Assembly (NCBI RefSeq): GCF_019195435.1
Contig: NZ_CP078069.1
Location: 2,480,001-2,544,000 of the forward strand
DNA length: 64,000 bases
Direction: 5' to 3'
DNA from: Comamonas sp. NLF-1-9
GTDB lineage: Bacteria > Pseudomonadota > Gammaproteobacteria > Burkholderiales > Burkholderiaceae_C
Every line of letters begins with the position of its first letter. Position 1 is the first letter of the stretch. The notes under the pieces were generated by a model. The model did no database searches and had not been told where the DNA came from. It saw only the letters and a list, made by a program, of their open reading frames with translations. Position numbers and translations under genes: made by a program. Shown piece after piece: positions 1 to 60,517 of this stretch.

Positions 1-896
1 ATGGTGGTGACCTTCCAGCCGTCGAAGGCCTTGGGCGGCACCAGCATCGAGAAATTGGTCTTGCCGCAGGCGCTGGGAAACGCGGCGGCCACGTGGTATT
101 TTTTTCCTTCGGGGTTTTGCACGCCCAGGATCAGCATGTGCTCGGCGAGCCAGCCTTCGTCGCGCCCCATGGTGGACGCAATGCGCAGCGCCAGGCACTT
201 TTTGCCCAGGAGCGCGTTGCCGCCGTAGCCCGAGCCGTAGCTCCAGATTTCGCGCGTTTCGGGGTAGTGCACGATGTATTTGGTGGGGTTGCAGGGCCAG
301 CTCGTCGCGTCTTTCTGCCCTTCGGCCAGCGGCACGCCCACGCTGTGCACGCAGGGCACGAACGGACCCTCGGTGCCGATCACGTCGTAGACAGCGCGGC
401 CCATGCGCGTCATCAGCTTCATGTTCACCGCCACATAGGCGCTGTCGGAAAGCTCCACGCCGATCTGCGCGATCGGGCTGCCCAGCGGCCCCATGGAGAA
501 CGGAATCACGTACATCGTGCGCCCGGTCATGCAGCCGTCAAACAGCGGCTTGAGCGTCGCGCGCATCTCGGCCGGCGCCATCCAGTGGTTCGTCGGGCCG
601 GCGTCTTCTTCCTTCTGCGAGCAGATGAAGGTACGCCCTTCGACGCGCGCGACGTCGCTGGGGTCGGACCACGCGAGAAAGGAATTGGGGCGCTTGGCCG
701 GGTTCAGGCGCTTGAAGGTACCGGCCTGAACCAGTTGCTCGCACAGCTGCTCGTATTCCTCCTGGCTGCCGTCGCACCAGTGGATGCGCGCCGGCTTGCA
801 CAGCGCTGCCATGTCGGCGACCCAGGCGATCAGGCGGGCGTTCTTGACGTAGGCGGGTGCCTGCACGTGCAGGCCTTGCATGGTCGGTGCGTTCAT
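1..896 (-). CDS. pckG: Phosphoenolpyruvate carboxykinase (GTP), 5' part
   Basis: Cytosolic gluconeogenic enzyme converting oxaloacetate plus GTP to phosphoenolpyruvate, GDP and CO2. The minus-strand frame starts at ATG 896 ([20 protein letters not shown]) and stays open to the window edge, giving about 298 residues, roughly half of the usual ~600-620. The nucleotide-binding P-loop FPSACGKTN is visible at about residues 273-281, and the preceding blocks ([43 protein letters not shown]) are typical of the GTP-dependent family rather than the ATP-dependent one. The C-terminal half lies outside the window. No neighbour shares its transcript: upstream sequence to about 1150 is non-coding. Confidence 0.96.
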
Positions 897-2640: not shown

Positions 2641-3867
2641 TTACTGCTGCGGGTTGACTAGGTGGTCGCCCACCTGCACCGCGTCGCTCACGCGCAGCAG
2701 CAGCACGTAGGAGACGCGCTCGAAGGTGCGAAACACCATGGCGATGCCATTGACCTCGCTGGGCAGCTTGATGGTGGGCTTGTTCTCGTCGGTCTTGTCC
2801 TGCACGCGCTCGCCGCCGCTGAGCACGGTGAGCACCTGGCCGACCTCGATGCCGTCGGCGCTGCCGCGGTTGATGGCCACCACCTGGTTCTGCCCGGCGT
2901 AGCGCACCGCGGTGCTGCCGTACAGCGAGACCACCTGCGCATCCACCGGCACCTGCGGCGCATGCGGCACGTAGTTGGCAAAGCCCTGCTTGACCGCAGG
3001 CAGCAGGCGGTCGCCCGGGCGCACCTCTTCCTTGGCGCCCGAGAGGCTGACCGTGGCGGGCACCGGCACGACCTCGACCTTGCCCTCGCCGGCCGGGCTT
3101 TCCTGCTCGGACTCGCCGCGCACCAGCGTGGCGCGCGCGACGTACTGCGCCTCGTAGCCGAGGATCTCGCCGCTGGCCGGGTCCTTCATCGGCACCAGGT
3201 TGCGGTACACGCGCCACTGGCGCGGGGTGTCGACGCCGAGTTCGACCGGGCTGCCTTCTGCGCCGCGCACGTAGGCCAGGTCGCCATTGCCGATGATGGA
3301 GTGCGAGCCGCGCGTGGCGACGATGCGCGGTGCCTGCTCGAAGGCCAGCTCCTGTACCACCTCGGGCTCGACCAGGAAGGGCTCGATCAGTTGCGGGTTG
3401 AGCGTGGGCAGCGCGCTGTCGGCCAGGCTCTCGTAGCGTGTGCGCGGCGAGATGCGGATGGTCTCCCCGGGCCCGCCGGTGTGCAGCCGGGCGTAGCCGC
3501 CGCTGCGCTCCAGGTACAGGGTCTGGCCCGGATAGATCAGGTGCGGGTTGGCGATGGTCTTGAGGTTCATGCCCCAGAGCTCTGGCCAGCGCCAGGGCTG
3601 GCGCAGGTACACGCCCGAGATGCCCCAGAGCGTGTCGCCGCGCTTGACCACGTAGCGCTCGGGCGCACCGGGCGAGAGCTCGGACTCGGGAATGCCGCGG
3701 GCGGCCGTCTGCTGGGCGGTGGCGCGGGCCTGGTCGGTGATGGGAAACTTTTGCGCCCATGCGGCACCCGAAGGCAAGGTGCAGAGCAGGGCGGTGGCCA
3801 GGAGCGAGGCGGCCGCTGCGCCGCAGGCCTGTGTGCTTGTCCGTCCTGCCTTGTCTTTGTCCAGCAT
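2641..3867 (-). CDS. LysM peptidoglycan-binding domain protein
   Basis: A 408-residue exported protein. Residues 1-38 look like a signal peptide ending AWA-QK. One LysM domain spans about 72-119 (YVVKRGDTLWGIS ... LIYPGQTLYL), and the remaining ~290 residues form an uncharacterised conserved C-terminal part. The frame is open further upstream to 3921, but ATG 3867 is preferred because a GAGGGA ribosome-binding site lies before it and it gives a compact signal peptide. It probably binds periplasmic peptidoglycan. It heads an operon with dprA and diverges from def; the shared upstream region contains nested inverted repeats. Confidence 0.9.
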   Translation of the reverse strand: MLDKDKAGRTSTQACGAAAASLLATALLCTLPSGAAWAQKFPITDQARATAQQTAARGIPESELSPGAPERYVVKRGDTLWGISGVYLRQPWRWPELWGMNLKTIANPHLIYPGQTLYLERSGGYARLHTGGPGETIRISPRTRYESLADSALPTLNPQLIEPFLVEPEVVQELAFEQAPRIVATRGSHSIIGNGDLAYVRGAEGSPVELGVDTPRQWRVYRNLVPMKDPASGEILGYEAQYVARATLVRGESEQESPAGEGKVEVVPVPATVSLSGAKEEVRPGDRLLPAVKQGFANYVPHAPQVPVDAQVVSLYGSTAVRYAGQNQVVAINRGSADGIEVGQVLTVLSGGERVQDKTDENKPTIKLPSEVNGIAMVFRTFERVSYVLLLRVSDAVQVGDHLVNPQQ

Positions 3868-3922
3868 GTGAAGATCCCTCTTGCCTGTTTCGTCGCGTCG
3901 CTGCGCTCGAGCGATGAGCACA

Positions 3923-47552: not shown

Positions 47553-50500
47553 GTTTCAATCCGCGCCCGCCGTTGCTGACGGGCGATGCCGGAGTGCTGG
47601 GGCGGCGTTGGTATGAGTGGCCGGTTTCAATCCGCGCCCGCCATTGCTGACGGGCGATGCCCTGCCTACGGCATCGACCCGGAAAAGTGGTTTGTCGTTT
47701 CAATCCGCGCCCGCCATTGCTGACGGGCGATGCCCGGCGTGCCGCGGCCCGTGCCGTCCTCGCTGGCGTCGTTTCAATCCGCGCCCGCCATTGCTGACGG
47801 GCGATGCCGTCTTGATCGTCGCCATCTCGCCCGGCTCCATCCGGTTTCAATCCGCGCCCGCCATTGCTGACGGGCGATGCCGCCTGCGCTGCCGATGTTG
47901 CCGTGGTCGGAGTGGTTTCAATCCGCGCCCGCCATTGCTGACGGGCGATGCCGCCTGGCCGCAGCTCAGCCCCCGCAAAAAGTAGGTTTCAATCCGCGCC
48001 CGCCATTGCTGACGGGCGATGCCTGAAATGCGCGCGCAGTGACCCCACACCGTAGTGGTTTCAATCCGCGCCCGCCATTGCTGACGGGCGATGCACGCGC
48101 GACACCTGCGGCAACGCTGATAAGTGCCGTTTCAATCCGCGCCCGCCATTGCTGACGGGCGATGCGGCAGCGCAAAGGCGTCCATGGCGCCAGGGCGGTG
48201 TTTCAATCCGCGCCCGCCATTGCTGACGGGCGATGCGTGGGATGCGTCTCTACGGAATAGGGGGCCTGAATGTTTCAATCCGCGCCCGCCATTGCTGACG
48301 GGCGATGCCCCATCGGTAAGCTCCAGCCTGAGCGAGCAGACAGGTTTCAATCCGCGCCCGCCATTGCTGACGGGCGATGCCCAGGAACGACTCTCGACGG
48401 ACGCATCGTCACCGTGTTTCAATCCGCGCCCGCCATTGCTGACGGGCGATGCTGGCCACGCCCGCCATGACGGCGGCGGCAACTTCGGTTTCAATCCGCG
48501 CCCGCCATTGCTGACGGGCGATACCAAAAAGGTCTTGCGCTACACGTTAAAGCGTGTAGTTTCAATCCGCGCCCGCCATTGCTGACGGGCGATGCCTGGC
48601 GCTCGGTAAGCTGGGTGCCTTCGATGGCGTTGTTTCAATCCGCGCCCGCCATTGCTGACGGGCGATGCGGGGCGTAGTGCGGGATTTTTGCGGGTTTGCG
48701 GTGTTTCAATCCGCGCCCGCCATTGCTGACGGGCGATGCAGGCCATAGCTGACGTCATTGATTGACCACTTATGTTTCAATCCGCGCCCGCCATTGCTGA
48801 CGGGCGATGCGTGGGATGCGTCTCTACGGAATAGGGGGCCTGAATGTTTCAATCCGCGCCCGCCATTGCTGACGGGCGATGCGCGAGGTGCGCCGCGAAG
48901 TCTTTCGATGGCTCTGGTTTCAATCCGCGCCCGCCATTGCTGACGGGCGATGCCATTCGTCGGCGCTCATGCGCGTGCAGGTGAGCCGTTTCAATCCGCG
49001 CCCGCCATTGCTGACGGGCGATGCTGGCGTCGATCAGGAGGGCGGAGGCGTCGGCAATGTTTCAATCCGCGCCCGCCATTGCTGACGGGCGATGCGCGAG
49101 CTGCCCGCGACAGCTTTACCGATCTCATCGGTTTCAATCCGCGCCCGCCATTGCTGACGGGCGATGCGCGGCCATCGTGTACTTCGACGTGACATTGACC
49201 GGTTTCAATCCGCGCCCGCCATTGCTGACGGGCGATGCGTGCTGGCGCTGCGCACCGGCATGCGCTCCGGGGTTTCAATCCGCGCCCGCCATTGCTGACG
49301 GGCGATGCAGCAGCTCGGGTGCGCCGCTCATCTTGACGACGGTTTCAATCCGCGCCCGCCATTGCTGACGGGCGATGCCGCCTGCGCTGCCGATGTTGCC
49401 GTGGTCGGAGTGGTTTCAATCCGCGCCCGCCATTGCTGACGGGCGATGCCGCCTGGCCGCAGCTCAGCCCCCGCAAAAAGTAGGTTTCAATCCGCGCCCG
49501 CCATTGCTGACGGGCGATGCCTGAAATGCGCGCGCAGTGACCCCACACCGTAGTGGTTTCAATCCGCGCCCGCCATTGCTGACGGGCGATGCACGCGCGA
49601 CACCTGCGGCAACGCTGATAAGTGCCGTTTCAATCCGCGCCCGCCATTGCTGACGGGCGATGCGGCAGCGCAAAGGCGTCCATGGCGCCAGGGCGGTGTT
49701 TCAATCCGCGCCCGCCATTGCTGACGGGCGATGCCTGCGAAACCAAGCAGCGCGAGCTGGAGAAAAAGTTTCAATCCGCGCCCGCCATTGCTGACGGGCG
49801 ATGCCCGGTGAGCTGATCGACGCTGAGTTTGCCGGCCTTGTTTCAATCCGCGCCCGCCATTGCTGACGGGCGATGCATCGCCTACCCGCTGCAAAACCCC
49901 GGCGCAAAGATGTTTCAATCCGCGCCCGCCATTGCTGACGGGCGATGCATCCTAGGCAAGCCCAGCAATGTCGATGTCAAATGGTTTCAATCCGCGCCCG
50001 CCATTGCTGACGGGCGATGCCCGCGCGGCGCCCTGCAGCGACGCATCGAGGCGCTGGTTTCAATCCGCGCCCGCCATTGCTGACGGGCGATGCGCCTCGG
50101 AAACAAGAGCGTCTCCAAGCGATCGAGTTTCAATCCGCGCCCGCCATTGCTGACGGGCGATGCATTGCGCGCAGGCGCTGCGCCATTTCGCTGGTTAGTT
50201 TCAATCCGCGCCCGCCATTGCTGACGGGCGATGCCGTTGCGCACCGCGATAGGCTGCGCGTCTTGGTAGTTTCAATCCGCGCCCGCCATTGCTGACGGGC
50301 GATGCTTGGTACACCTGCTGCGAGTGTGGTGCCAACATTGTTTCAATCCGCGCCCGCCATTGCTGACGGGCGATGCATGGTGTAGCGCTGGCCCAAGGCC
50401 CAGTAGTCGATGTTTCAATCCGCGCCCGCCATTGCTGACGGGCGATGCTTGTTCGGGGTTGACGTAGTCCCACTTGGGCGTCGTTTCAATCCGCGCCCGC

Positions 50501-50660
50501 CATTGCTGACGGGCGATGCGCCCGACGGCACCAGGCTGACGCTGGGGAAGTAGTTTCAATCCGCGCCCGCCATTGCTGACGGGCGATGCCTGCGCTTTGC
50601 TGCAGGGTGGCGGCCACTTGCGTGTTTCAATCCGCGCCCGCCATTGCTGACGGGCGATGC
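47553..50660 (-). CRISPR. Type I-C CRISPR array, 44 repeats and 43 spacers
   Basis: The repeat is 37 bp: on the plus strand it begins GTTTCAATCCGCGCCCGCC and ends GACGGGCGATGC; on the minus strand it ends in the ATTGAAAC handle typical of type I-C. Its stem is CGCCCGTC/GGCGGGCG with loop AGCAAT. Repeats start at 47553, 47624, 47697, 47771 and so on to 50624, at 70-74 base intervals; spacers are 33-37 bp. Two repeats vary: the first (G at 47572) and the fourteenth (A at 48523). The mutated first repeat and the cas genes on the right place the leader at the right, so transcription is on the minus strand. Spacers 5-9 equal 26-30, and spacer 10 equals 18, leaving 37 different spacers. Confidence 0.99.
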
Positions 50661-50864: not shown

Positions 50865-51155
50865 TTACAGCACCAGCGGTGCATCAAAATCCACGGCCTT
50901 GAAGCTGCCGTGCTCCAGCACTTCAAAGCCTCGGGTTTGCGGCATCCGGTACAAGCGCAGGCAGTCCTGCTCAGGGTTGATTTCGGCCAACAGTCGGCGC
51001 TCCAGCGCCTCGAACTGCGCCACGTCCACCTGGCATTCAAAGACCGATTTTTGCACCCGCTGCCCCGTGCTCTCGCACACCTTGGCGATGCGGCGCAGGC
51101 GGCGCCGGCCGGCGCTGGTTTCGGTATTCACGTCGTAGCAAACCAGTACCAGCAT
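50865..51155 (-). CDS. cas2: CRISPR-associated endoribonuclease Cas2
   Basis: A 96-residue adaptation protein that forms the Cas1-Cas2 integrase. It starts [20 protein letters not shown], with the ferredoxin-fold first strand and conserved aspartate (Asp8), and has the [17 protein letters not shown] helix; length matches I-C Cas2. It lies 11 bases after cas1 and next to the leader. Confidence 0.96.
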
Positions 51156-51166
51156 GGCCCCTCTCT

Positions 51167-52192
51167 TTACCTGGGTACAAAGGGCAAATAGGGCATGGCG
51201 TCGTCGCGCAGCGCACGCGCCAGCAGGCGCGCCTGCACCAGCGGCACCAAACCCAGGGGCAGACTTTGCGCCAGCAACGGGTGGGTGATTTCGTCCTTCT
51301 TGCGCTCCTGGTAAGCCGTCACCACGGATTTGCGTGCGTCGCCTTGCAGGGACACGCTGCCTTCGCGCAGGTCAAAATCATCCGCCTGCACCTGCCCACG
51401 GTTGATGAGGGTGAGGGCCAGGCGATCGGCCCAGGGGCGAAACTCTTCCATCACATCCAGCGCCAGTGCGGCACGTCCCGGGCGCAGGGCATGCAAGAAG
51501 CCGACTTGCGGATCAAGCCCGGCGGCTTCCAGTGCGCTGCGGCAGTCGTTCATCCACATGGCGTACAAAAAGGACAGCAGGGCATTGAAGCGGTCACGCG
51601 GCGGGCGGCGCGTGCGGCCGTCCATGGCGAAATGCTCGCGCTGATCCGGGCGCACCAGCAGCGGCAGGCCGCTGAAGTACTGGCGCGCGGCTTCGCCTTC
51701 CACACCGCGTACGGTGTCCAGCGTCGTCGCCTCGGGCAAGACACGCAGGCTGGCGGCCAGGTCGTCGGCGCGGCGGATCAGCACGGCGGCTTCGTCTGCG
51801 CTCTTGGCCTCGCGGGCGCCGCGCTGCAAGACCTGGCGCGTGTTCTTGATCTTGCCGGCGACAAAGCTGCGCGCCATGTCCAAGACATAGGCCGCGTCCG
51901 CGCCGCGCGCAAACTGCGCCTGGCGCAAGAGCACGTTGCCGCTGACTGCACCTTCGAGCCTGGCCTTGAAGCGGCCATTGGCATCGAGCAGCACCAAGGC
52001 GATGCCCTCGTCGGCCAGGCGGTGCATGAGCGGCGCGGACAGGCCGACGTGGCCAAAGCAGACCACGGCCGTGAGGTGATGCAGCGGCACGCGCAATCGG
52101 GTTTCGCGCTCGACCTCGATGCGCAGGGTGTCGTTGTCCAGGCGCAGCCAAGCGTCGGGCAGGGTGACGTAGAGGGTGTTGAGCAGTTGCAC
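51167..52192 (-). CDS. cas1: CRISPR-associated endonuclease Cas1 (type I-C)
   Basis: Integrase that inserts new spacers. The 341-residue protein begins [21 protein letters not shown], typical of I-C Cas1, and contains [19 protein letters not shown] followed by [10 protein letters not shown], which supply the active-site His, Glu and Asp. The start is probably GTG 52192; a TTG at 52204 that overlaps the cas4 stop is the alternative. There is no ATG in the right place. Confidence 0.96.
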
Positions 52193-52200
52193 GGTTTGCC

Positions 52201-52854
52201 TCAAGCCTCCGGGTCGAACAGGCTGCGCCGTGCGGCGGCCAGGAGGAGGGGCGTAGCCTGGGGTTGGCAGCGCTCTTGCAAGGAGCAGCCTTTGCAGCGC
52301 TGTGCGGCCTGATCGCCCACCAGGGGCGACGGCAAAACGCCGCTGGCCAGCATCTGGCGCACGGCTTGGGCGGTGTCCGCGACGTCTTTGCGCAAGTCGG
52401 CGGTAATGGGCACGACGCGGCGCCGGCGCGAGCTGGCGTAGTACAGCGCACCCTCGGGCACGGCCCGGGAGGTCATGGTCTCCAGGCACAGCGCCTGCGC
52501 GGCCAGTTGCAGATCGTCGCAGGCGGCGATGGCCGGCGCCTTGTGGCGGCTGCCGTGCTTGTATTCCACCGGGTAAGGCGTGCCGTCGGGCAAGAACTCG
52601 ATCACGTCCGACTTGCCGATCAGCCCCAGCGTGTCGTGCCACAGCGGCAGGGCGCGTTCTACGCGCACGCCCTTGGTGCTTTGCACGCTGGGTTGATCCA
52701 CCCGCGCGTGCTCGGCCTGACCGCGCAGGGTGTGCAGGTTGTCGTCGAAGGCCTGCTCCAGATGGATCAGGCCGCATTGGCGCGGGCAATACTTCCAATG
52801 CTGCAGCGCCGAGAGCGAAATCGGATCCAAATCGGCATTATCCGGCGTAGGCAT
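52201..52854 (-). CDS. cas4: CRISPR-associated exonuclease Cas4
   Basis: RecB-type nuclease that trims prespacers and sets PAM-dependent orientation. The 217-residue protein has the iron-sulfur cysteines Cys23 and Cys27 (YCPRQC) and Cys187, Cys190 and Cys196 (CKGCSLQERC), with the nuclease motif PYPVEYKHG and the preceding GKSDVIEF aspartate. It overlaps or abuts cas1 and follows the BRO-N gene by only 11 bases. Confidence 0.95.
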   Translation of the reverse strand: MPTPDNADLDPISLSALQHWKYCPRQCGLIHLEQAFDDNLHTLRGQAEHARVDQPSVQSTKGVRVERALPLWHDTLGLIGKSDVIEFLPDGTPYPVEYKHGSRHKAPAIAACDDLQLAAQALCLETMTSRAVPEGALYYASSRRRRVVPITADLRKDVADTAQAVRQMLASGVLPSPLVGDQAAQRCKGCSLQERCQPQATPLLLAAARRSLFDPEA

Positions 52855-52865
52855 TGCGCGAACAG

Positions 52866-53747
52866 CTATGGTTTTTTACGCGACGGGTGGGCAAGTTCGG
52901 CCGTGGGCGGCTGGAGCTGAGGGGCAGTGCCCTCTGCCTGCGATGGCAGGTAGTTGCCCCCGGTCACCACCGATTGGCCGGTCTGCGCTTCGAGCTGCTG
53001 GCGTGCCTGGCGGGCGATGCGCCCACCTGCGTGCGCCGCTCCCTTGTTCTCTTGCAGGCCGGTGGCATCCTGGGCAGCGGCGATCTGGCGCGTGGACAGC
53101 TCGGCAAGGGCGGTAAAGATCAGCTCGGCTTCGCTCATATGGTCGCGCAGGTTCTGGCTTTTCAGACCCTTCTTGGCCTTGTGCTGCGCCACCGACAGGC
53201 CCGCCCATTCCTGGTGGATGAGATTGGTGAGCAGGGCAAACTCCTGTCCCGGCGCAATGCCATGCTCGGCCCAGTAGTCGGTGAGCTTGTTGCGCGTTTC
53301 CTGCCCGGTCATGCGCTGCTGAATCCATTTGTCGCTGCGCCCGAGCTGCTGCCAGGTCTGGCGGGCGCGATCCAGCGCCTGCGCCGGGTCGGCAATCTCC
53401 TGCATGCGCTCGTAGCCCACCTTGGCCAGCCAGAGTTTGATGGGTTCGGCCTTGGGGCTGGGGATGGATTGCACCAGGCGCAGAAGGGTTTGCGCGCTGG
53501 CGCAGTCGGTCTCGCGCTGCTTGCCGTCCGTCGAGGGTAATTTGAACTGTACGATTTCAGCGTACGGTTGCTCTGAACCCGCCTCCTGCGCCAGCTTGCG
53601 CTTGAGGTCAGACCAATAGCGGCGGGCGTTATTGGAGTCGGTCAGCACCTGAACAACATCGACGACGGAAAACCACCAGGTGTCCGTGGCTTCGTCATAC
53701 AGGCGGCGAATGGCCTGGCCGTCGAATTGGGTCGGCAGGATTTTCAT
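52866..53747 (-). CDS. BRO-N / DinD-like protein inserted in the cas operon
   Basis: A 293-residue protein that is not a standard Cas component. Residues 1-110 resemble the BRO family N-terminal DNA-binding domain (WWFSVVDVVQVLTDSNNARRYW then LKRKLAQEAG). Residues about 150-255 resemble the C-terminal part of DNA-damage-inducible protein DinD (EFALLTNLIHQEWAGLSVAQH, KGLKSQNLRDHMSEAEL, GRIARQARQQLEA). The last 40 residues are Pro/Gln-rich and probably disordered. AAGGAG precedes ATG 53747. It sits between cas7c (54 bases) and cas4 (11 bases) on the same strand, so it is co-transcribed. E. coli DinD inhibits RecA; whether this protein does is unknown. Confidence 0.85.
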   Translation of the reverse strand: MKILPTQFDGQAIRRLYDEATDTWWFSVVDVVQVLTDSNNARRYWSDLKRKLAQEAGSEQPYAEIVQFKLPSTDGKQRETDCASAQTLLRLVQSIPSPKAEPIKLWLAKVGYERMQEIADPAQALDRARQTWQQLGRSDKWIQQRMTGQETRNKLTDYWAEHGIAPGQEFALLTNLIHQEWAGLSVAQHKAKKGLKSQNLRDHMSEAELIFTALAELSTRQIAAAQDATGLQENKGAAHAGGRIARQARQQLEAQTGQSVVTGGNYLPSQAEGTAPQLQPPTAELAHPSRKKP

Positions 53748-53804
53748 CAAATGCTCCTTGACAAAGCCTGCATGGTCGTCGCAGCAGGCTTTGCAGCGTT
53801 CTCG

Positions 53805-54647
53805 TCAAAAGCCACTGATGATTTCTGGATCGAGTCCATCCAAAGGATCCAAACGGATGCTGCCATCGGCATTCACCGTCAAGGAACCATGCACCTTGGC
53901 CGACGAATACTGCCCGGACTTGCAGTTGTGCCGCCACCAGACGACGGTCAGCACTTCCATGCTGCCGTCCGGCCGGGCAGACGAAGCGTCGTTCTCAAAC
54001 ATCTTGGGCAAGATGGCTTTGAGCACCTGGGCATCGGCATCGCTGAAGCCCGTGCGCTCGGCCAGCTGCGGGTTGATGCTGCCAAAGGTGCAATAAATGC
54101 CGCTGTCCACGCGGTGCTTCATGCCCATGGTGTCTGAACCGCGTTTCGTGCCGTCACCCTCGCCGCTGACGCTCTTGGTGATCTGCGTGCTGGTAATGGA
54201 AACCGGCTCTACGCTAAAGGCCGACTGGATGGTAACCGGGCCACGGATGGGGATAGATACCCCACCCGCGTCACCACCCGCAGCAAAGGCAAACACCTGG
54301 CCAAACGCCCGCACATCAAACCACTTGGCGCAGGCGAGTTTGGCGGTTGCATCCTTGTTGGCATTTTTCTTGAAGGCATCCTTGCCCAAACCGTTGGCAG
54401 CGGATTCCGCGCGGTTGCGCAGGCTGGTTTCGCCATCGACCTTGCGGTCGTCCGACTGCACGAAGATGGCCTTGCCCGATTCCAGCAGGCGATCGCGCAG
54501 CTTGCGCTTGAGGCACACATCGGTGATCTCGCCATAACCGCCATAGTCGGTGCGCGGGCGGTTGCCGTTCAAGGGGTCGCCATTGGGGTTGGCGCGTTTG
54601 ACGCGCAGCACCACGGCAAAGTCGATTTTGTTTTGCAAAGCGCTCAT
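53805..54647 (-). CDS. cas7c: Type I-C Cascade backbone subunit Cas7 (Csd2)
   Basis: Binds along the crRNA spacer as the repeated backbone of the I-C interference complex. The 280-residue protein has the Csd2 start KIDFAVVLRVKRANPNGDPLNGNRPR, the RGPVTIQSAFSVEPV block and the GSDTMGMKHRVDSGIY segment. It overlaps the cas8c stop by 4 bases. Confidence 0.97.
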   Translation of the reverse strand: MSALQNKIDFAVVLRVKRANPNGDPLNGNRPRTDYGGYGEITDVCLKRKLRDRLLESGKAIFVQSDDRKVDGETSLRNRAESAANGLGKDAFKKNANKDATAKLACAKWFDVRAFGQVFAFAAGGDAGGVSIPIRGPVTIQSAFSVEPVSITSTQITKSVSGEGDGTKRGSDTMGMKHRVDSGIYCTFGSINPQLAERTGFSDADAQVLKAILPKMFENDASSARPDGSMEVLTVVWWRHNCKSGQYSSAKVHGSLTVNADGSIRLDPLDGLDPEIISGF

Positions 54648-55069
54648 GCGGGTTCTCCAGTCATAGCGGTTGGGGTGGTTTCAGATGCGTCATCGCTCGA
54701 TTCGCCACGTGAGCGCAAGGCCTGACGTTGGCAGTGGTAGCCCAGCAGAAATTCACCACTCAATGGCGTGTCGGTCAAAAAATCCTGCGGGTCAAACAGC
54801 GCCACGATGTCATCGAGCAAACTCTCTTTTTTGTGCAACACCCCAGGGCGCATGGCGCGCAGCCTGGCGATGTAGGGGCGCAAGGACAGTTCGATGGTGC
54901 GCCACGTCGAAGCGGGCCGATCTGCAAAACGCTGCATAAGGCGCGCCGCTGAGGTGTCCCTGGCCTTTTCACCTGCAGCGTAGAGCGCGTAGCTCTCAAT
55001 ATCTTCAGCAACCGCCAGCAGCCGACCAAACAAATAGTCGCGGCTGGTGCGCTCTTGCTCCAATGCCAT
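54644..55069 (-). CDS. cas11c: Internal Cas11c small subunit within cas8c
   Basis: Type I-C systems are known to make their small subunit from an internal start inside cas8c. Here ATG 55069, in frame at Cas8c codon 501, is preceded by GAGAGGGGG with about 6 bases spacing and would give a 141-residue helical protein starting MALEQERTSRDYLFGRLLAV. Size and place match known Cas11c. This is inferred from the family and the ribosome-binding site, not proven. Confidence 0.65.
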   Translation of the reverse strand: MALEQERTSRDYLFGRLLAVAEDIESYALYAAGEKARDTSAARLMQRFADRPASTWRTIELSLRPYIARLRAMRPGVLHKKESLLDDIVALFDPQDFLTDTPLSGEFLLGYHCQRQALRSRGESSDDASETTPTAMTGEPA

Positions 55070-56569
55070 CAGATACCCCCTCTCGTTGAAAAAACCTTTG
55101 AACAGCGCGCAGGCAATGCCCAGGCAGCGCTCCCATTCCCACACTTCCATGCCCACCCGGTTGGCCACGCGGCGCACTGCCGATCGAAGCAGATCCAAGG
55201 GCAGCGGAACCCCATCGACGATGCAAGGCAGCAGCCGCTCCACGGTGGATGCGCGCAATTTGTCGTCCAGGCGGCTGCCAAAGGCCGCCTCCGCAATATC
55301 ACGCGGCGCTGGGGCACCAATGAATTGGCGCTCCTTGCCGTAGTTCTGCGGCCATGCAAACTGCCCATGCCACGCCTGCAGGCGTGCCAGAAATTCGGAG
55401 CCCTTGAGCTCCCGGTAGAAGGTAATGGCCATGCGCCCCGGGGTTGCGGAATCGAGCCCCAGCACCACCACTTCATCCCTGGGCGCAAGCTGTGCGGCGT
55501 AACCCGCAATGGCTTTTCGTAGTTGCAAACCAAAGGCCTGGCCCGCATCCGCGTGGCTGATGCCCAGCGCCCAGTCCAGGGATGCACCGCCAAACGCTTC
55601 GTACGTGGCCAGCAGGGGATCTGGAATCGGCTTGCCCGTAGGCTCCCAGGCCACAAACACCTGATCGCCATTGCGGTAGCCCTGCCGTTCAATCAGCCAG
55701 CGCAAGGCGTTGTGCGCCTTTTGCGTGGCGACGAAACCTATGCTCAATGCTTCTTCATCGCTGATGAAGCGCCCCCGGTAGGTGTAGCCCGAGCTGTCGT
55801 TGGCCGAAATCAATTTGGCCTTGTCACCGCCGTGGCGCAGCTTTGCCGGGTGCTGCACGGCTAAAGTAGCTTGCTGACCCGTCGCCATGCACAAACCTAC
55901 GTTCTTCTGCCTGTGCTGGTAGTACGCGATCCAGGAGGCAAGCAGCGCTTCGTCCGTCCATGGCGCTGAGTTGGGGTCGTCGCCCACCTCCACGCGCCAG
56001 CGCACAAACGCATCGTCGGGCGATTGCTGCGGCGCCAAAACTTTGAAGATGGCGGGTGCGCTGGCCTTGTCAGCACTCCATACCTTGAGCAGCTTGCCGT
56101 CGTCACCCACGGGGAGGATGCCCGCTTGAATCAAGTCGGCCACCACATTGCCGCCCTGCACATAGGCCCGCACGGCCAGCAGCTTGGGATGTGGATCGGC
56201 AGCGGCCCAATCCGACAGAGATTTCACGTAGTCGCGGTACGGCTCGGCCGGGTCGTTGGCGAAACCAACCGTCACCTCCCCACCCCACGACGTGAAGTCC
56301 TGGGCGAGGTATTGCAGCTTGTCATGCAACGGGTGGTTAATGGGTTTTTTGCCGCTGCGCCCTCCCGATGCCTCGGTGCAGGGAATCAAGGTCAGGCCCT
56401 GGGCTTTTTCCAGCACGGAAGCACGCCTGAAATGGCCAGCGCCATCGAGCACGATTTCAATCTGTGCGTTCTGGGTGCTGTGGCAAATAGGCATCAAAGG
56501 TGTTGAGCCCTGCGGCTCCTTGCCCTTGCACGCGTCGTAGGTGGCAAGTAGCTTGGGCAACCAACTCAT
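54644..56569 (-). CDS. cas8c: Type I-C Cascade large subunit Cas8c (Csd1)
   Basis: Recognises the PAM and starts R-loop formation. The 641-residue product begins MSWLPKLLATYDACKG, and has the Csd1 blocks KLISANDSSGYTYRGRF and ATQKAHNALRWLIERQGY. Length fits the family (~600). ATG 56569 overlaps the cas5c stop; the longer upstream frame is not used. Codon 501 is a methionine behind a good ribosome-binding site, the likely start of the separate Cas11c subunit. Confidence 0.96.
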   Translation of the reverse strand: MSWLPKLLATYDACKGKEPQGSTPLMPICHSTQNAQIEIVLDGAGHFRRASVLEKAQGLTLIPCTEASGGRSGKKPINHPLHDKLQYLAQDFTSWGGEVTVGFANDPAEPYRDYVKSLSDWAAADPHPKLLAVRAYVQGGNVVADLIQAGILPVGDDGKLLKVWSADKASAPAIFKVLAPQQSPDDAFVRWRVEVGDDPNSAPWTDEALLASWIAYYQHRQKNVGLCMATGQQATLAVQHPAKLRHGGDKAKLISANDSSGYTYRGRFISDEEALSIGFVATQKAHNALRWLIERQGYRNGDQVFVAWEPTGKPIPDPLLATYEAFGGASLDWALGISHADAGQAFGLQLRKAIAGYAAQLAPRDEVVVLGLDSATPGRMAITFYRELKGSEFLARLQAWHGQFAWPQNYGKERQFIGAPAPRDIAEAAFGSRLDDKLRASTVERLLPCIVDGVPLPLDLLRSAVRRVANRVGMEVWEWERCLGIACALFKGFFNERGYLMALEQERTSRDYLFGRLLAVAEDIESYALYAAGEKARDTSAARLMQRFADRPASTWRTIELSLRPYIARLRAMRPGVLHKKESLLDDIVALFDPQDFLTDTPLSGEFLLGYHCQRQALRSRGESSDDASETTPTAMTGEPA

Positions 56570-57291
56570 GCAGACACCCCCATTTCGCAGGCGTCCGCAT
56601 CTACGGGCCGGATGCCTTGATTCAGCCCGAAAGGTTTGACGTTCATGGAGCGCACGAACCTGCGCTCGGTGCAATCCCGCGGGGGCGGGAAACGAATGAC
56701 GCCGTTGACCATGGTCGGCCGCCAGAAGCGGGCGTGCAGTTCCGTGCCGCCTGTTTCATCGGGGTAGTCAAAACCATGGAACATCAAGCCAAAGGCCAGC
56801 TCCCCAGCATCGTCTAGCTCTCCGGCACCCGAGCCAAACTCGCAGGCCTGCACATAGCCCTGGCAGTCGCGTGTGCCCAAAAAGATGTCCTGGCGCCCGC
56901 CGCGCTCGACCATGCGCTGGGCAATGGCGTTGTGCTTGGCTTCGATACGGTCGTCAGTCAACTCGGGGCGATGCTCGTTCCACTCGAAGTGGGCGCGCAC
57001 CTGGTATCGCACGTCGGCCAGGAAGGTGTAAATGGCCAGGCTGTTACCGCCACCCAGTTCCAACGGCTTGACTCCCTTGGTCTGGGTGCGGATGCGCTTC
57101 ATGACCCGCACTTCGTCGATCACCCAGATCAGCGTCGGCTTCCAGTAAATGGACTTGGCGATGCCCTTCAAAGCTTCGTAGGTCGGGACGTGGTACGAGC
57201 ACTTTTCGCCACCCACTTTGCTCAAGGGGTCGGTGAACAGGGCGTAGCGCCCAGACACTTCGAACTCGATGCTGCGTCGCGGCTTAGGCAT
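56566..57291 (-). CDS. cas5c: Type I-C crRNA-processing subunit Cas5 (Cas5d)
   Basis: In type I-C, Cas5 replaces Cas6 and cleaves the pre-crRNA in the repeat. The 241-residue protein starts MPKPRRSIEFEVSGRYALFTDPL; it has the conserved YHVPTYEALKGIAKSIYWKP and the RQDIFLGTRDCQGYV block. It overlaps cas3 upstream by 8 bases and cas8c downstream by 4 bases. Confidence 0.96.
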   Translation of the reverse strand: MPKPRRSIEFEVSGRYALFTDPLSKVGGEKCSYHVPTYEALKGIAKSIYWKPTLIWVIDEVRVMKRIRTQTKGVKPLELGGGNSLAIYTFLADVRYQVRAHFEWNEHRPELTDDRIEAKHNAIAQRMVERGGRQDIFLGTRDCQGYVQACEFGSGAGELDDAGELAFGLMFHGFDYPDETGGTELHARFWRPTMVNGVIRFPPPRDCTERRFVRSMNVKPFGLNQGIRPVDADACEMGVSA

Positions 57292-59785
57292 ACAAAACCT
57301 CCATGGGGGAAACGGGCTCAGTGGCCAGACCAAACAAGTCGCTGTAGTAGCGCTCATTCAAACAAAGGATGCGCGTATCCGGCTTGACCTCGTGCAAGGC
57401 TTGCGCTGCCATAAGTTTTTTGAGTACATGGGGAAACACGTTCACGCTGTACTGCTGCGCCCGCCGCAGCAGTTCGATTTCCAGCTCTACGTCGTAGGCG
57501 GCGCACAGGTCGGCAATCAATTGCTTGCCATCCGCCCCAAAGGGGACGATGACCGCCTGCGTGGCCGAGTCGATGGCGCGGAAGGCCTTGGCCGCCGTCA
57601 TGAAAGCCTGGCGGAAAAAAAGCGGGGGTGCGGATGCGTGCTGGCGTTTGTATTCGTTCACGCTACCTGCGTTGAGCGACAGCAGGTTGAGCAGGGTGTC
57701 GTTTTGCGCGACATCGCCAGCCACCACCGCATAGCTCATGTCTGCGGCGCGGTCGAAGAAGTAATAGCGGTAGTAAGCGTGCATTGCCGCGGGGCTGAGT
57801 AAGTCATCACTGAATCTCTCTGGGTTTTGCTGGAACTCATCGAGCACCCGCAAGGCGGCGTTACGCCCCTGCAGAATGTCGGGCAGCTTGTCGAGGTTTT
57901 CCGCCTGCGGATTGACGACATGGACGCGACCGATGGTGCGCAGCCCATTGCGGTTGCACCGGCCCGCCGCCTGGGCAATCGAGTCGAGCCCGGCCATGAA
58001 GCGGATGACGCTGCCAAAGTCCACATCCACGCCGGCCTCGATCAACTGCGTGCTCACGCACAGCGTCGGCTGGCCGGCCCTCAAGCGCGCAAGCAGTTCG
58101 GCCAGGCGCGCCTTGCGGTGGGCCGGGCACATGTCGGTGCTCAGGTGAAAGGCAGTGTCTGGATCCACCGCAGCAGCGCACAGCTCAAAAATACGCCGTG
58201 CCGATGCCTTGGTATTGACGATGACCAGACAGCTCCCGCTGGCTTGCGTCTCTGCCATGGCGAGATCGGCCACCTCCTGACCGCTCCAGCCCCCGGCTCT
58301 GCGTTGGTCATTCACCGCTACCCGTTTGAGCGCCTTGAATAGGTGGCCGACGTCAGGTATCAACTCAGGTGCCGTCGCCAAACGGATAGCGCCCAAGGCG
58401 GGATTGACACTGTCGAGCAGCGGCTGCGTAGCGGTACACAGAAGTGCCGTGGTGTTGCACTGCGTCGCCAAGAAATTGATGGCGTTGTTGAACAGGTGGA
58501 CGCATTGCACGGGCAGGGTTTGCACCTCATCGAACACCAGCACTGCCCGGACCAGCTGATGCATACGGCGCGCGCCCCGCGTGCCCGCGCCGAACAAGGC
58601 TTCCAGCAACTGCACCATGGTGGTGTAAACAACCGGGGCATCCCAGTTCTCGCACAACACCTTCTCGCGCCAGGTTTGCTGCTCGGGCGTGAGGCTGCCG
58701 TGGTGCTCCAGCACGATCCGGCCCTGATCCTGTGGCGCGTCCGCAGGCTCCAGTACCTCGCGCACCACCCTGGCGTTCTGGTCGATGATGGACGTGAAGG
58801 GAATGACGTAGATGATTCGATCCAGACCACGTTCCCTGGCGTGATGCAAAGCAAAACGCAGGCTGGCCAGGGTTTTTCCACCGCCCGTGGGCACGGTCAG
58901 GGTGTAGATGCCATGGGGCCGTGCCGCAGCCTGGTGGCAGTGCCAGGAAATATCCTGGCGTAGGTGGTCGATGGGGCGGGTGGGCGGCAACTGTGCCAAG
59001 TGGCGCTCCAGGCGCTCCACCAGCACAGTCCAATCGGTATAGCGCCCGCCAGGGCGAAAGCTGCGCTGGCGCCGTTTTTCAAAATCGGCCGTGTCGATAC
59101 GGTCGGCATCGATCAGGCAACTGAATAGAAACCGCACCAGCAGACCCCATTGCTGCTGCACCGTCACAGGGCTGCCTTGCGCCTGATTGCTGCGCCCAAT
59201 CTGTGTGAGCAATGCCTGGAATTTGGCCGCGACGCGGCCATCTGCCAGCAAGCCACGGCAGCGTTGCAACAGCTCGGGATCGGCCAGGCGCTGCACTTCA
59301 TCCAGATGGGTGCGCTGCTGCGCCTTCTCCATGCGGCGGGCAAAGAGGTTTGTCCCAAAGGCATCGGCCCGGGCGCTGATGCAGTCGATCAGGCCGGAGT
59401 GGTGTGAAGCTATGCACAAGGCAAGCGCCTGAGCCGTTTCAAGAGCGCCTGTTTTGCCGAGAACCTGCCATGCAAACTGTGCCCCGGCGGTGGAGTGATC
59501 TACCTTGCCTTTCAGGTTCTTGGCATCCACCCAGTCCTCGTCCTCGTCTTGGTTCAGCGCGCCAATCGCAGACTTCAGATAGGCCTGGAAAGCCCGGCTG
59601 TACTTGCCCAGATCGTGCAACAAGCCCAGCAGTTCGCCCATTTCCTGCAAGCCCAGTTTGCCTGCGAGCTGCGCTGCGATTTCTCCGACCCCGAGCAAGT
59701 GGTCTTCCAGGGACTGCCAAGTGTTGTCCGACGGTCGATGATGGGCGACAAAAGAAGCGGCGGTTCCTGCCGGCTGGGAAAACAT
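57284..59785 (-). CDS. cas3: CRISPR-associated nuclease-helicase Cas3
   Basis: Recruited to the R-loop to nick and unwind target DNA. The 833-residue protein has the N-terminal HD nuclease (His29, His57-Asp58 in LLHDLGKYSRAF, ASHHSG) to about residue 240, then an SF2 helicase with Walker A VPTGGGKTLA (about 296-305), the DEVQ box (about 415) and motif VI QAAGRCNRNG. The C-terminal domain is complete. It follows the solitary HD ORF by 33 bases. Confidence 0.97.
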   Translation of the reverse strand: MFSQPAGTAASFVAHHRPSDNTWQSLEDHLLGVGEIAAQLAGKLGLQEMGELLGLLHDLGKYSRAFQAYLKSAIGALNQDEDEDWVDAKNLKGKVDHSTAGAQFAWQVLGKTGALETAQALALCIASHHSGLIDCISARADAFGTNLFARRMEKAQQRTHLDEVQRLADPELLQRCRGLLADGRVAAKFQALLTQIGRSNQAQGSPVTVQQQWGLLVRFLFSCLIDADRIDTADFEKRRQRSFRPGGRYTDWTVLVERLERHLAQLPPTRPIDHLRQDISWHCHQAAARPHGIYTLTVPTGGGKTLASLRFALHHARERGLDRIIYVIPFTSIIDQNARVVREVLEPADAPQDQGRIVLEHHGSLTPEQQTWREKVLCENWDAPVVYTTMVQLLEALFGAGTRGARRMHQLVRAVLVFDEVQTLPVQCVHLFNNAINFLATQCNTTALLCTATQPLLDSVNPALGAIRLATAPELIPDVGHLFKALKRVAVNDQRRAGGWSGQEVADLAMAETQASGSCLVIVNTKASARRIFELCAAAVDPDTAFHLSTDMCPAHRKARLAELLARLRAGQPTLCVSTQLIEAGVDVDFGSVIRFMAGLDSIAQAAGRCNRNGLRTIGRVHVVNPQAENLDKLPDILQGRNAALRVLDEFQQNPERFSDDLLSPAAMHAYYRYYFFDRAADMSYAVVAGDVAQNDTLLNLLSLNAGSVNEYKRQHASAPPLFFRQAFMTAAKAFRAIDSATQAVIVPFGADGKQLIADLCAAYDVELEIELLRRAQQYSVNVFPHVLKKLMAAQALHEVKPDTRILCLNERYYSDLFGLATEPVSPMEVLYA

Positions 59786-59818: not shown

Positions 59819-60517
59819 TTATTGCATCCCAATGGCCACGCATTGCTTTCTGGCGCAACTTTGGTGCGACATCGGTGCAGGTTTCGGCATGCAGGACGTT
59901 GCCCGGCGCGCCCTGCCGGCGTCGAAATGCGCTTCGGTATCCAGAAAATCGGCATCCACCAGACAGGAGAACAACATCCGCAGCCACAGCGCAAAGCCGT
60001 CTTGGCCACCCGGGATGGCCCTCAAGTCCGGCACGAAATCGCCCGCATCCAGGATGGCTCGCGGCGGCTGGGCATCCAGCGCCTCTTGCAATTCCTGCGC
60101 ACTGTCTGCCTGGCTCAGGCGCACTTCCAGATCGCCCTCCCAATTCGCCAAGCCAGCATGGTGTCCAGCAATCAGATAAGCCAGCACGCGCGCCATCAGC
60201 TTGCCCCGGTCGCCATGCGCTTGCCCAAGGCATTGGATCGCCCACAAGGCCCCGGCGGCGGAATGCGTCTTCTCGCGTCCCGCCACCTTGTGTTCGATAT
60301 GAGCATCCTCGACCTGGCGCACATGGCGCTGAAAACCGGGGCGATACTTTCCCAGGTCGTGCCACTTTCCAGCCAACCTCGCCCACGACGAGAGACTCTG
60401 CTCCCGGCCCAGAGCAGCGGCGAAACGTTGTGCACGCTCTGCAACGGACTGCAGATGCTCTGCCAGCGGGTGCCCACCAGAATGTGCCCAGTATTCAGTC
60501 ACGCGTGCGCCTTGCAT
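59819..60517 (-). CDS. Solitary Cas3-type HD nuclease (Cas3''-like), probably a truncated cas3
   Basis: A 232-residue protein related to the HD domain of type I Cas3 but without any helicase. All HD-nuclease residues are present: His21, His53-Asp54 (KWHDLGKY), His85 (KTHS), His119-His120 (GHH) and Asp188/Asp190 (LVDADF). Family similarity stops right after residue 200, and the last ~30 residues (from RRATSCMPKP) look foreign, as after a truncation or fusion. ATG 60517 is preferred to an upstream TTG. It is a paralog, not a copy, of the HD domain of the adjacent full-length Cas3. It may still be an active nuclease. Confidence 0.8.
   Translation of the reverse strand: MQGARVTEYWAHSGGHPLAEHLQSVAERAQRFAAALGREQSLSSWARLAGKWHDLGKYRPGFQRHVRQVEDAHIEHKVAGREKTHSAAGALWAIQCLGQAHGDRGKLMARVLAYLIAGHHAGLANWEGDLEVRLSQADSAQELQEALDAQPPRAILDAGDFVPDLRAIPGGQDGFALWLRMLFSCLVDADFLDTEAHFDAGRARRATSCMPKPAPMSHQSCARKQCVAIGMQ

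Follow-up and report, generated by a model that had tools for sequence, protein, structure and literature searches.

A Bro-N/DinD-like gene between the interference and adaptation genes of type I-C CRISPR operons as candidate accessory defence cargo

Here we present a Bro-N/DinD-like gene, referred to below as bro. It is found in the window, the 64,000-nucleotide stretch of DNA analysed in this study, where cas7c and cas4 of a complete type I-C CRISPR operon flank it. Our preferred reading, to which we assign a probability of about 0.5, is that bro is self-contained accessory defence cargo at the boundary of the interference and adaptation genes, and not part of spacer uptake. The evidence comes from the layout of the operon, the protein family, the distribution and history of the gene in cas operons and elsewhere, and comparison with what other type I-C operons carry at the same junction.

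The host genome of the window is a single contig of 3.03 Mb. Open reading frame calls and profile searches place the operon on the minus strand, running from 59785 to 50865 and followed by a CRISPR array. In transcriptional order, and all on the minus strand, the genes are cas3 (57284..59785; Cas3 HD and helicase models), cas5c (56566..57357; TIGR01876, E=5.7e-75), cas8c (Csd1; 54644..56674; TIGR01863, E=1.9e-118), cas7c (Csd2; 53805..54647; TIGR02589, E=2.5e-94), bro (52866..53747), cas4 (52201..52854; TIGR00372, E=4.9e-32), cas1 (Cas1c; 51167..52312; TIGR03640, E=1.8e-144) and cas2 (50865..51155; TIGR01573, E=4.3e-18). The true starts of cas8c and cas1 are probably downstream of the reading frame starts, since the TIGR01863 and TIGR03640 matches each begin at residue 42. 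The array (47553..50660, strand undefined) has 44 repeats of 37 bp and 43 spacers, 37 of them different; numbered from 47553, spacers 5-9 recur as 26-30 and spacer 10 as 18, and the array seems to have been rearranged by duplication.

The reading frame of bro runs from an ATG at 53747 to a stop at 52866 and encodes 293 residues with zero internal stops; the motif AAGGAG stands six bases 5' of the ATG. An earlier note on this DNA, made from the sequence alone, had described a 293-residue gene embedded in a type I-C cas operon and flanked by cas7c and cas4, with a good ribosome-binding site and no sign of decay, and on each of these points we agree with it. Its 11-bp spacer on the cas4 side is also correct; the spacer on the cas7c side (53748..53804, minus strand) measures 57 bp, not 54. 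A consensus scan of positions 52600-54200 for a sigma-70-like promoter found neither a promoter nor a terminator belonging to bro, and since a promoter-like site of its own is absent, the gene would be expressed from the cas mRNA. The 57-bp spacer also contains a perfect 9-bp hairpin directly 5' of the ribosome-binding site. Its pairing is retained in locus L002 through a two-sided change. The z values are -2.4 and -2.5; the hairpin is weaker in L006 (z of -1.3) and missing in L144 and L146.

The bipartite protein that the earlier note had proposed, with a Bro-type N-terminus and a DinD-like C-terminal part, was recovered by profile and pairwise searches. The Pfam Bro-N model (PF02498) matches residues 17-109 (E=1.3e-9; 39 bits against a gathering threshold of 25.6). 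The C-terminal part alone aligns with E. coli DinD, at 26% identity over 141 residues (E=4e-7), and the sequence comparison reported no similarity between the two N-termini. Profile comparison with DinD gave a probability of 64%, and the NCBIfam DinD equivalog model gave 17.3 bits against a cut-off of 242. Judged by sequence, the label "DinD-like" fits the C-terminal part of the protein and the label "DinD" does not. Nearly the whole protein (residues 7-272 of 293) matches the PADLOC model PDLC04920 (E=6.7e-117) and so belongs to the profile family PDC-S13, for which at least 8000 candidates were scored, all matching. E. coli DinD is alike in scoring against PDC-S13, through a different model of that set (E=2.4e-121), and differs in its context, the K-12 gene being flanked by yicC and yicG. 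A sequence search for a relative of solved structure found none, its sole two matches being unrelated (E of about 0.7). Separately, E. coli DinD (L181, 5761-6585) scores 380 bits against positions 6-267 of 717 in the PADLOC type I model "Specificity_I" (PDLC03083), and fusions of the DinD-like part to HsdS may exist.

According to passages in three papers that quote the finding (PMC10602874, PMC4849656, PMC4129442), E. coli DinD inhibits RecA filaments. Phage-defence candidates of the PDC class were found through "guilt-by-embedding", as described in sections of PMC12988326 and PMC10855318, in whose main text PDC-S13 is not named. The family does occur embedded in defence operons, both in the cas7|cas4 slot and, as described below, between hsdS and hsdR; phage protection by PDC-S13 has candidate status only.

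To survey the distribution of bro we used genome samples drawn evenly, with mechanical gene calls in the loci. Of 399 genomes sampled from the window's family, 40 contain at least one match; in 11 of them, representing seven genera, the gene is located between cas7 and cas4. In the species-representative collection 80 of 239 relatives were retained as loci, and seven of these (L001-L007) have the gene in this position; three loci were regarded as duplicate contigs and dropped before counting (L005 of L148, L007 of L149, L073 of L158). Together, the 11 family loci and five species-representative loci give 16 that are distinct, from seven or more genera; some loci run off contig ends, and in L001 the frames of other cas genes are broken. 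Thus, the earlier note's concern that homologues might adjoin cas genes in this strain only was answered by a search across cas operons, which showed that the gene is not strain-specific. Chance or annotation error is ruled out by the 16 loci together with purifying selection (see below), and a gene peculiar to one interference lineage is ruled out because five of the loci have interference genes of the window's type and 11 those of a second lineage, here called X type. In all 16 loci except L146, where HicBA intervenes, bro is directly 5' of cas4.

Within the family, 35 genomes have a Cas1 that is 62% or more identical; 10 of these carry the gene and 25 do not, so bro does not count as a core cas gene of type I-C. 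An eleventh genome with the gene between cas7 and cas4 (G221) falls outside this count, its contig ending in cas4. We also read 29 further family loci, of which 10 adjoin cas4 and cas7, two have cas scraps only and 17 have neither. A random decayed insertion is ruled out for the window; decayed or left-behind copies were seen in L158 and L150. Two side observations concern other carriers: L152 (9601-12074) has two nearby copies of the gene, the second incomplete, and in L141 (5972-7091) the cas5 of a bro-carrying locus is broken by about 1.1 kb.

The cas-linked copies cluster in one branch of these operons. On a 68-row Cas1 tree that omits L001 and L153, bro is present in 14 of the 17 rows of one clade and its state changes three times; the clade members without it have no insert (L161), a HigBA-like pair (L162) or HicBA (L163). 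On a 35-row Cas1 tree there are two state changes, a value as low as which arose in 0 of 500 shuffles. The dN/dS of the gene lies between 0.10 and 0.18 in eight pairs, indicating purifying selection; it is near that of cas4, and exceeds that of cas2 in all eight pairs and that of cas1 in seven. The stable link to the cas operon that the earlier note had suspected is supported in this one clade.

Trees of bro itself contain part of the loci in hand (53 rows with the variable segment described below, 27 rows with it removed; alignment A1 comprises 33 sequences). In the 27-row tree, without residues 37-82, the 16 cas-located genes, two cas remnants and the solitary copy L151 share one side of a branch with support of 88/79, which is not starred; given this grouping, a single capture is likely, not proven. 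We conclude that bro was probably captured once, by a type I-C locus that was ancestral in the window's family. The position of L153 depends on the segment: it is outside the cas clade in the 53-row tree and inside when the segment is left out.

Two divergent type I-C interference lineages share bro and the adaptation genes, the X-type Cas7 being 30-39% identical to that of the window in most of these loci. Interference type changes at least five times, both on the bro tree (16 rows) and on a 14-row Cas1 tree (which lacks L001 and L153, the cas1 of L153 being missing from its contig). When six cross-type pairs were compared in 20-nucleotide blocks, the upstream blocks had 6-16 of 20 positions matching and the first block from the bro ATG 17-20 of 20, an edge that is to be expected because the two lineages share little upstream. 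What the edge does reveal is that bro remains with cas4-cas1-cas2 when the interference genes change. The window also has an X-type cas3 remnant, the HD part, 5' of its cas3 (59900..60502, minus strand; 76% identical to the cas3 of L003), which we read as a putative scar of interference-module replacement; L006 has such a fragment in the same place (3200-3877, 64%), and L144 and L146 have none.

The junction that bro occupies was also analysed in type I-C loci without it. We fetched 56 such loci. In the family these came from every one of the 25 genomes without bro whose Cas1 reaches 62% identity, and from 11 genomes whose Cas1 identity is 48-53%; the other 20 were the best of 31 further genomes at class level. 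Two of the 56 (L185, L210) have no cas7 match, leaving 54, and in 22 of these the distance between cas7 and cas4 exceeds 250 bp. Toxin-antitoxin (TA)-type proteins were found in 21 of the 22 inserts (L162-L206), and 19 match representative HicBA, ParE/antitoxin, VapC/FitA-like, HigBA-like or DUF433/DUF5615 proteins. The representatives were named by Pfam, which returned nothing for the HicB-like protein and, for the HigB-like one, a RelE-type match slightly short of the cut-off. The other three inserts have a ParE toxin (L191), a DUF4258 protein with a weak MqsA-like match (L196) and, by eye, a transposase-like reading frame (L190). Three of the 21 are counted on the basis of DUF433/DUF5615 (L179, L182) and DUF4258 (L196), which we take to be TA families. 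At the control junctions, inserts above 250 bp numbered 0 of 50 (cas5|cas8), 0 of 53 (cas8|cas7), 0 of 55 (cas1|cas2) and 4 of 55 (cas4|cas1); between cas3 and cas5, distances above 250 bp occurred in 11 of 48 loci, all of 268-410 bp, which we attribute to divergence at the ends of cas3. Each of the four inserts between cas4 and cas1 is TA-like: ParE (L186), HEPN/nucleotidyltransferase (L187), PIN with Phd/YefM (L189) and HepT-like/nucleotidyltransferase (L194). Since 21 of the 22 inserts are of TA type, the place held by bro is one that often takes addiction-type cargo. On the 68-row Cas1 tree we count 20 changes of slot state. None of the 14 rows of the outer clade has an insert, so the hotspot belongs to the other branch and not to all type I-C operons. 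The cas7|cas4 junction in one type I-C branch is thus a possible hotspot for TA-type cargo.

These findings bear on an alternative that we consider unlikely, in which bro itself acts as a module of addiction or abortive infection, cas7|cas4 serves as a guard position, and the gene punishes loss or silencing of the cas operon as TA pairs do. The near-exclusive TA content of the slot, the TA nature of the cas4|cas1 inserts, the absence of inserts at three of the control junctions, and the HigBA-like and HicBA modules in L162 and L163, where sister loci hold bro, all speak for it. A precedent for cas-linked cargo that could protect its locus is described in parts of PMC9458426: CreTA, an RNA toxin-antitoxin that guards CRISPR-Cas, is a small RNA pair repressed by Cascade, whereas the window has a protein of 293 residues. 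However, bro has no partner. The type II TA modules that occupy the slot in related loci are two-gene units of other families, the ParE- and VapC-type pairs lying on the opposite strand, whereas the 57- and 11-bp spacers beside bro are too small for a second gene and no antitoxin-sized reading frame was found in them, which sets it apart from a type II TA system. TA cargo also turns over faster, HicBA and ParE changing six times each on the 68-row tree and bro three times, and the empty slots of the outer clade count against a guard position as well. Finally, bro and HicBA occur together in L146, which means that the two are not plainly interchangeable.

A second unusual feature resides within the Bro-N domain. 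Residues 37-82 (codons at approximately 53502..53639, minus strand) occur as two main alleles, with a third in P0015. The proteins of the window and L002 are near-identical over residues 1-30 and 91-255; between these stretches about half of the residues are identical, and the DNA shows a similar dip. We compared 135 sequences, consisting of the 16 cas loci and 119 database proteins, in pairs that share sequences and are not independent. Among 1011 pairs at least 97% identical over residues 96-225, 24 drop below 70% over residues 37-82. In controls matched on 37-82, none of 638 pairs fell below 70% in windows 1-36, 83-128, 129-174 and 175-220, and seven of 638 did so in window 221-266, near the variable tail. 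The tree that omits the segment requires four allele changes, and the tree of the segment itself one; in the latter, the cas copies with allele B mingle with solitary copies. On these comparisons, residues 37-82 are swapped like a cassette between otherwise near-identical proteins, and since the exchange takes place within an otherwise very conserved protein, the segment may set what the protein recognises.

Beyond the window's family, bro relatives were sought in an order sample of 399 genomes, 25 of which have a match at E up to 1e-40. None of the 27 short loci read outside the family has cas genes beside the gene. Seven loci from other Burkholderiales families encode relatives at 67-69% identity; five of these adjoin type I restriction genes and four lie between hsdS and hsdR, with the full order hsdM-hsdS-gene-hsdR in L221 and L224. 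Three further placements between hsdS and hsdR come from the species-representative collection (L008, L012, L017). Across the wider family the picture is different. Of the 72 non-cas loci retained, 71 yielded 130 immediate neighbours, one being scanned on each side, and among the matches listed (25 of 208 for PADLOC, 25 of 105 Pfam families) there were at most four REase_I, at most three MTase_III, two PDC-S05 and two RhuM, the rest being ordinary genes. Defence context is therefore a minority across the wider family, judged from these listed matches. Distant relatives from several phyla, many of them Bacteroidota, look mostly solitary by the same one-neighbour scan.

Such copies speak for bro being a selfish or neutral single-gene cassette that settles in any operon, its link to CRISPR reflecting descent and not function, a possibility to which we give about as little credence as to the guard module. 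In several phyla its relatives are solitary, with ordinary genes around them, and they also occur on two viral contigs, and the segment points to recombination with solitary copies. Against this, purifying selection on the gene is about as strong as on cas4, the gene persists through deep Cas1 divergence and the changes of interference type, and most of the nearest relatives outside the family (five of the seven above) again adjoin defence genes.

We consider it quite improbable that bro controls adaptation or couples the operon to DNA damage, as a DinD-like RecA modulator channelling DNA ends to Cas4-Cas1-Cas2. The place directly 5' of cas4, kept with cas4-cas1-cas2 when the interference genes differ, and the DinD-like C-terminal part are what this proposal has in its favour. 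The earlier note had suggested control of adaptation and had argued from the location between the two modules for a link between them. The location stands; the argument from it does not, because the same slot holds TA-type modules in other type I-C operons. Nor did we see a sign of adaptation control: the gene is lacking from most family genomes with closely related Cas1 and from three of the 17 clade rows, its relatives occur without adjoining CRISPR genes, and a sequence-variable segment would be unexpected in a general DNA-end factor. We also expected strong co-divergence with Cas1. In a table of 14 loci (91 pairs; L001 and L153 omitted) the Spearman correlation of bro distances was instead weak for cas1 (0.22), compared with 0.48 for cas4 and 0.08 for cas2, and no better than the values for cas7 (0.34) and cas8 (0.41) within X type (36 pairs).

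Bro-N is common among phage regulators. The window protein shares the Pfam Bro-N domain at its N-terminus with phage Bro-N proteins and differs from them by its DinD-like C-terminal part and by a family that is rare in the phage records searched: matches were found in 4 of 50,697 phage records, all short and unannotated, in 14 of 72,556 plasmid records, and in two viral contigs by a pattern-based scan, so that the family is not mostly encoded by phages or mobile elements, as would be typical of anti-CRISPRs. In one of these contigs (L219, 7959-8810) the gene is flanked by a portal-like gene and by other late-type genes, within an apparent cluster of late genes, and in the other (L218, 7956-8828) it is near a recombinase-like gene, these functions being assigned by eye. 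For phage ICP1, an excerpt of PMC8263062 describes a Bro-N/KilAC gene that adjoins a nuclease gene. The idea of a captured phage anti-CRISPR or transcription regulator, the former also raised by the earlier note, draws on the prevalence of Bro-N in phages, and we give it hardly any credence, given the rarity of the family there and the long retention of the gene beside cas genes, inside the very operon that it would inhibit.

We return to the reading that bro is accessory defence cargo. A PDC-S13/DinD-like gene would have been taken, probably once, into the cargo slot between the interference genes and cas4-cas1-cas2. The changeable Bro-N segment would recognise a target that varies and is probably related to phages, and the DinD-like part, which is very conserved, would act on DNA or on RecA filaments; a cleaved invader, for example, might be denied RecA-dependent repair. 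The gene would in this way back up DNA-cutting systems (Cas3, HsdR) while being part of neither. The RecA or anti-repair step in particular we propose with considerable doubt. Several observations speak against accessory defence: defence neighbours are a minority, the gene is missing from three of the 17 clade rows and decayed or left behind in two loci, the match to DinD is weak and confined to the C-terminus, and the solitary L151 falls within the cas clade. The absence from those clade members and the solitary relatives also weigh most against the gene being tightly linked to CRISPR.

Neither the segment exchange nor the TA slot was found in the open-access literature searched, which included portions of PMC12669027 and PMC3150331 and did not extend to the PDC preprint (10.1101/2024.01.29.577857). 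In a broader and still more tentative form, which in its entirety we think somewhat less likely than the guard module, PDC-S13/DinD-like proteins would serve as portable partners to immune systems that cut DNA, and would do so in both type I restriction operons and type I-C CRISPR operons; the exchangeable Bro-N segment would recognise the invader, the DinD-like part would block RecA-dependent repair of the cut DNA, and cas7|cas4 would be a guard slot in one large type I-C branch, filled by such a gene or by a TA pair. The findings give a large protein family a clear place in which its function can be sought, with the same gene in CRISPR and restriction operons and natural loci that lack it or have a TA pair instead. 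The exchangeable segment hints at a variable ligand, and a TA hotspot at cas7|cas4 in one type I-C branch would bear on the upkeep of CRISPR loci and on the swapping of their modules.
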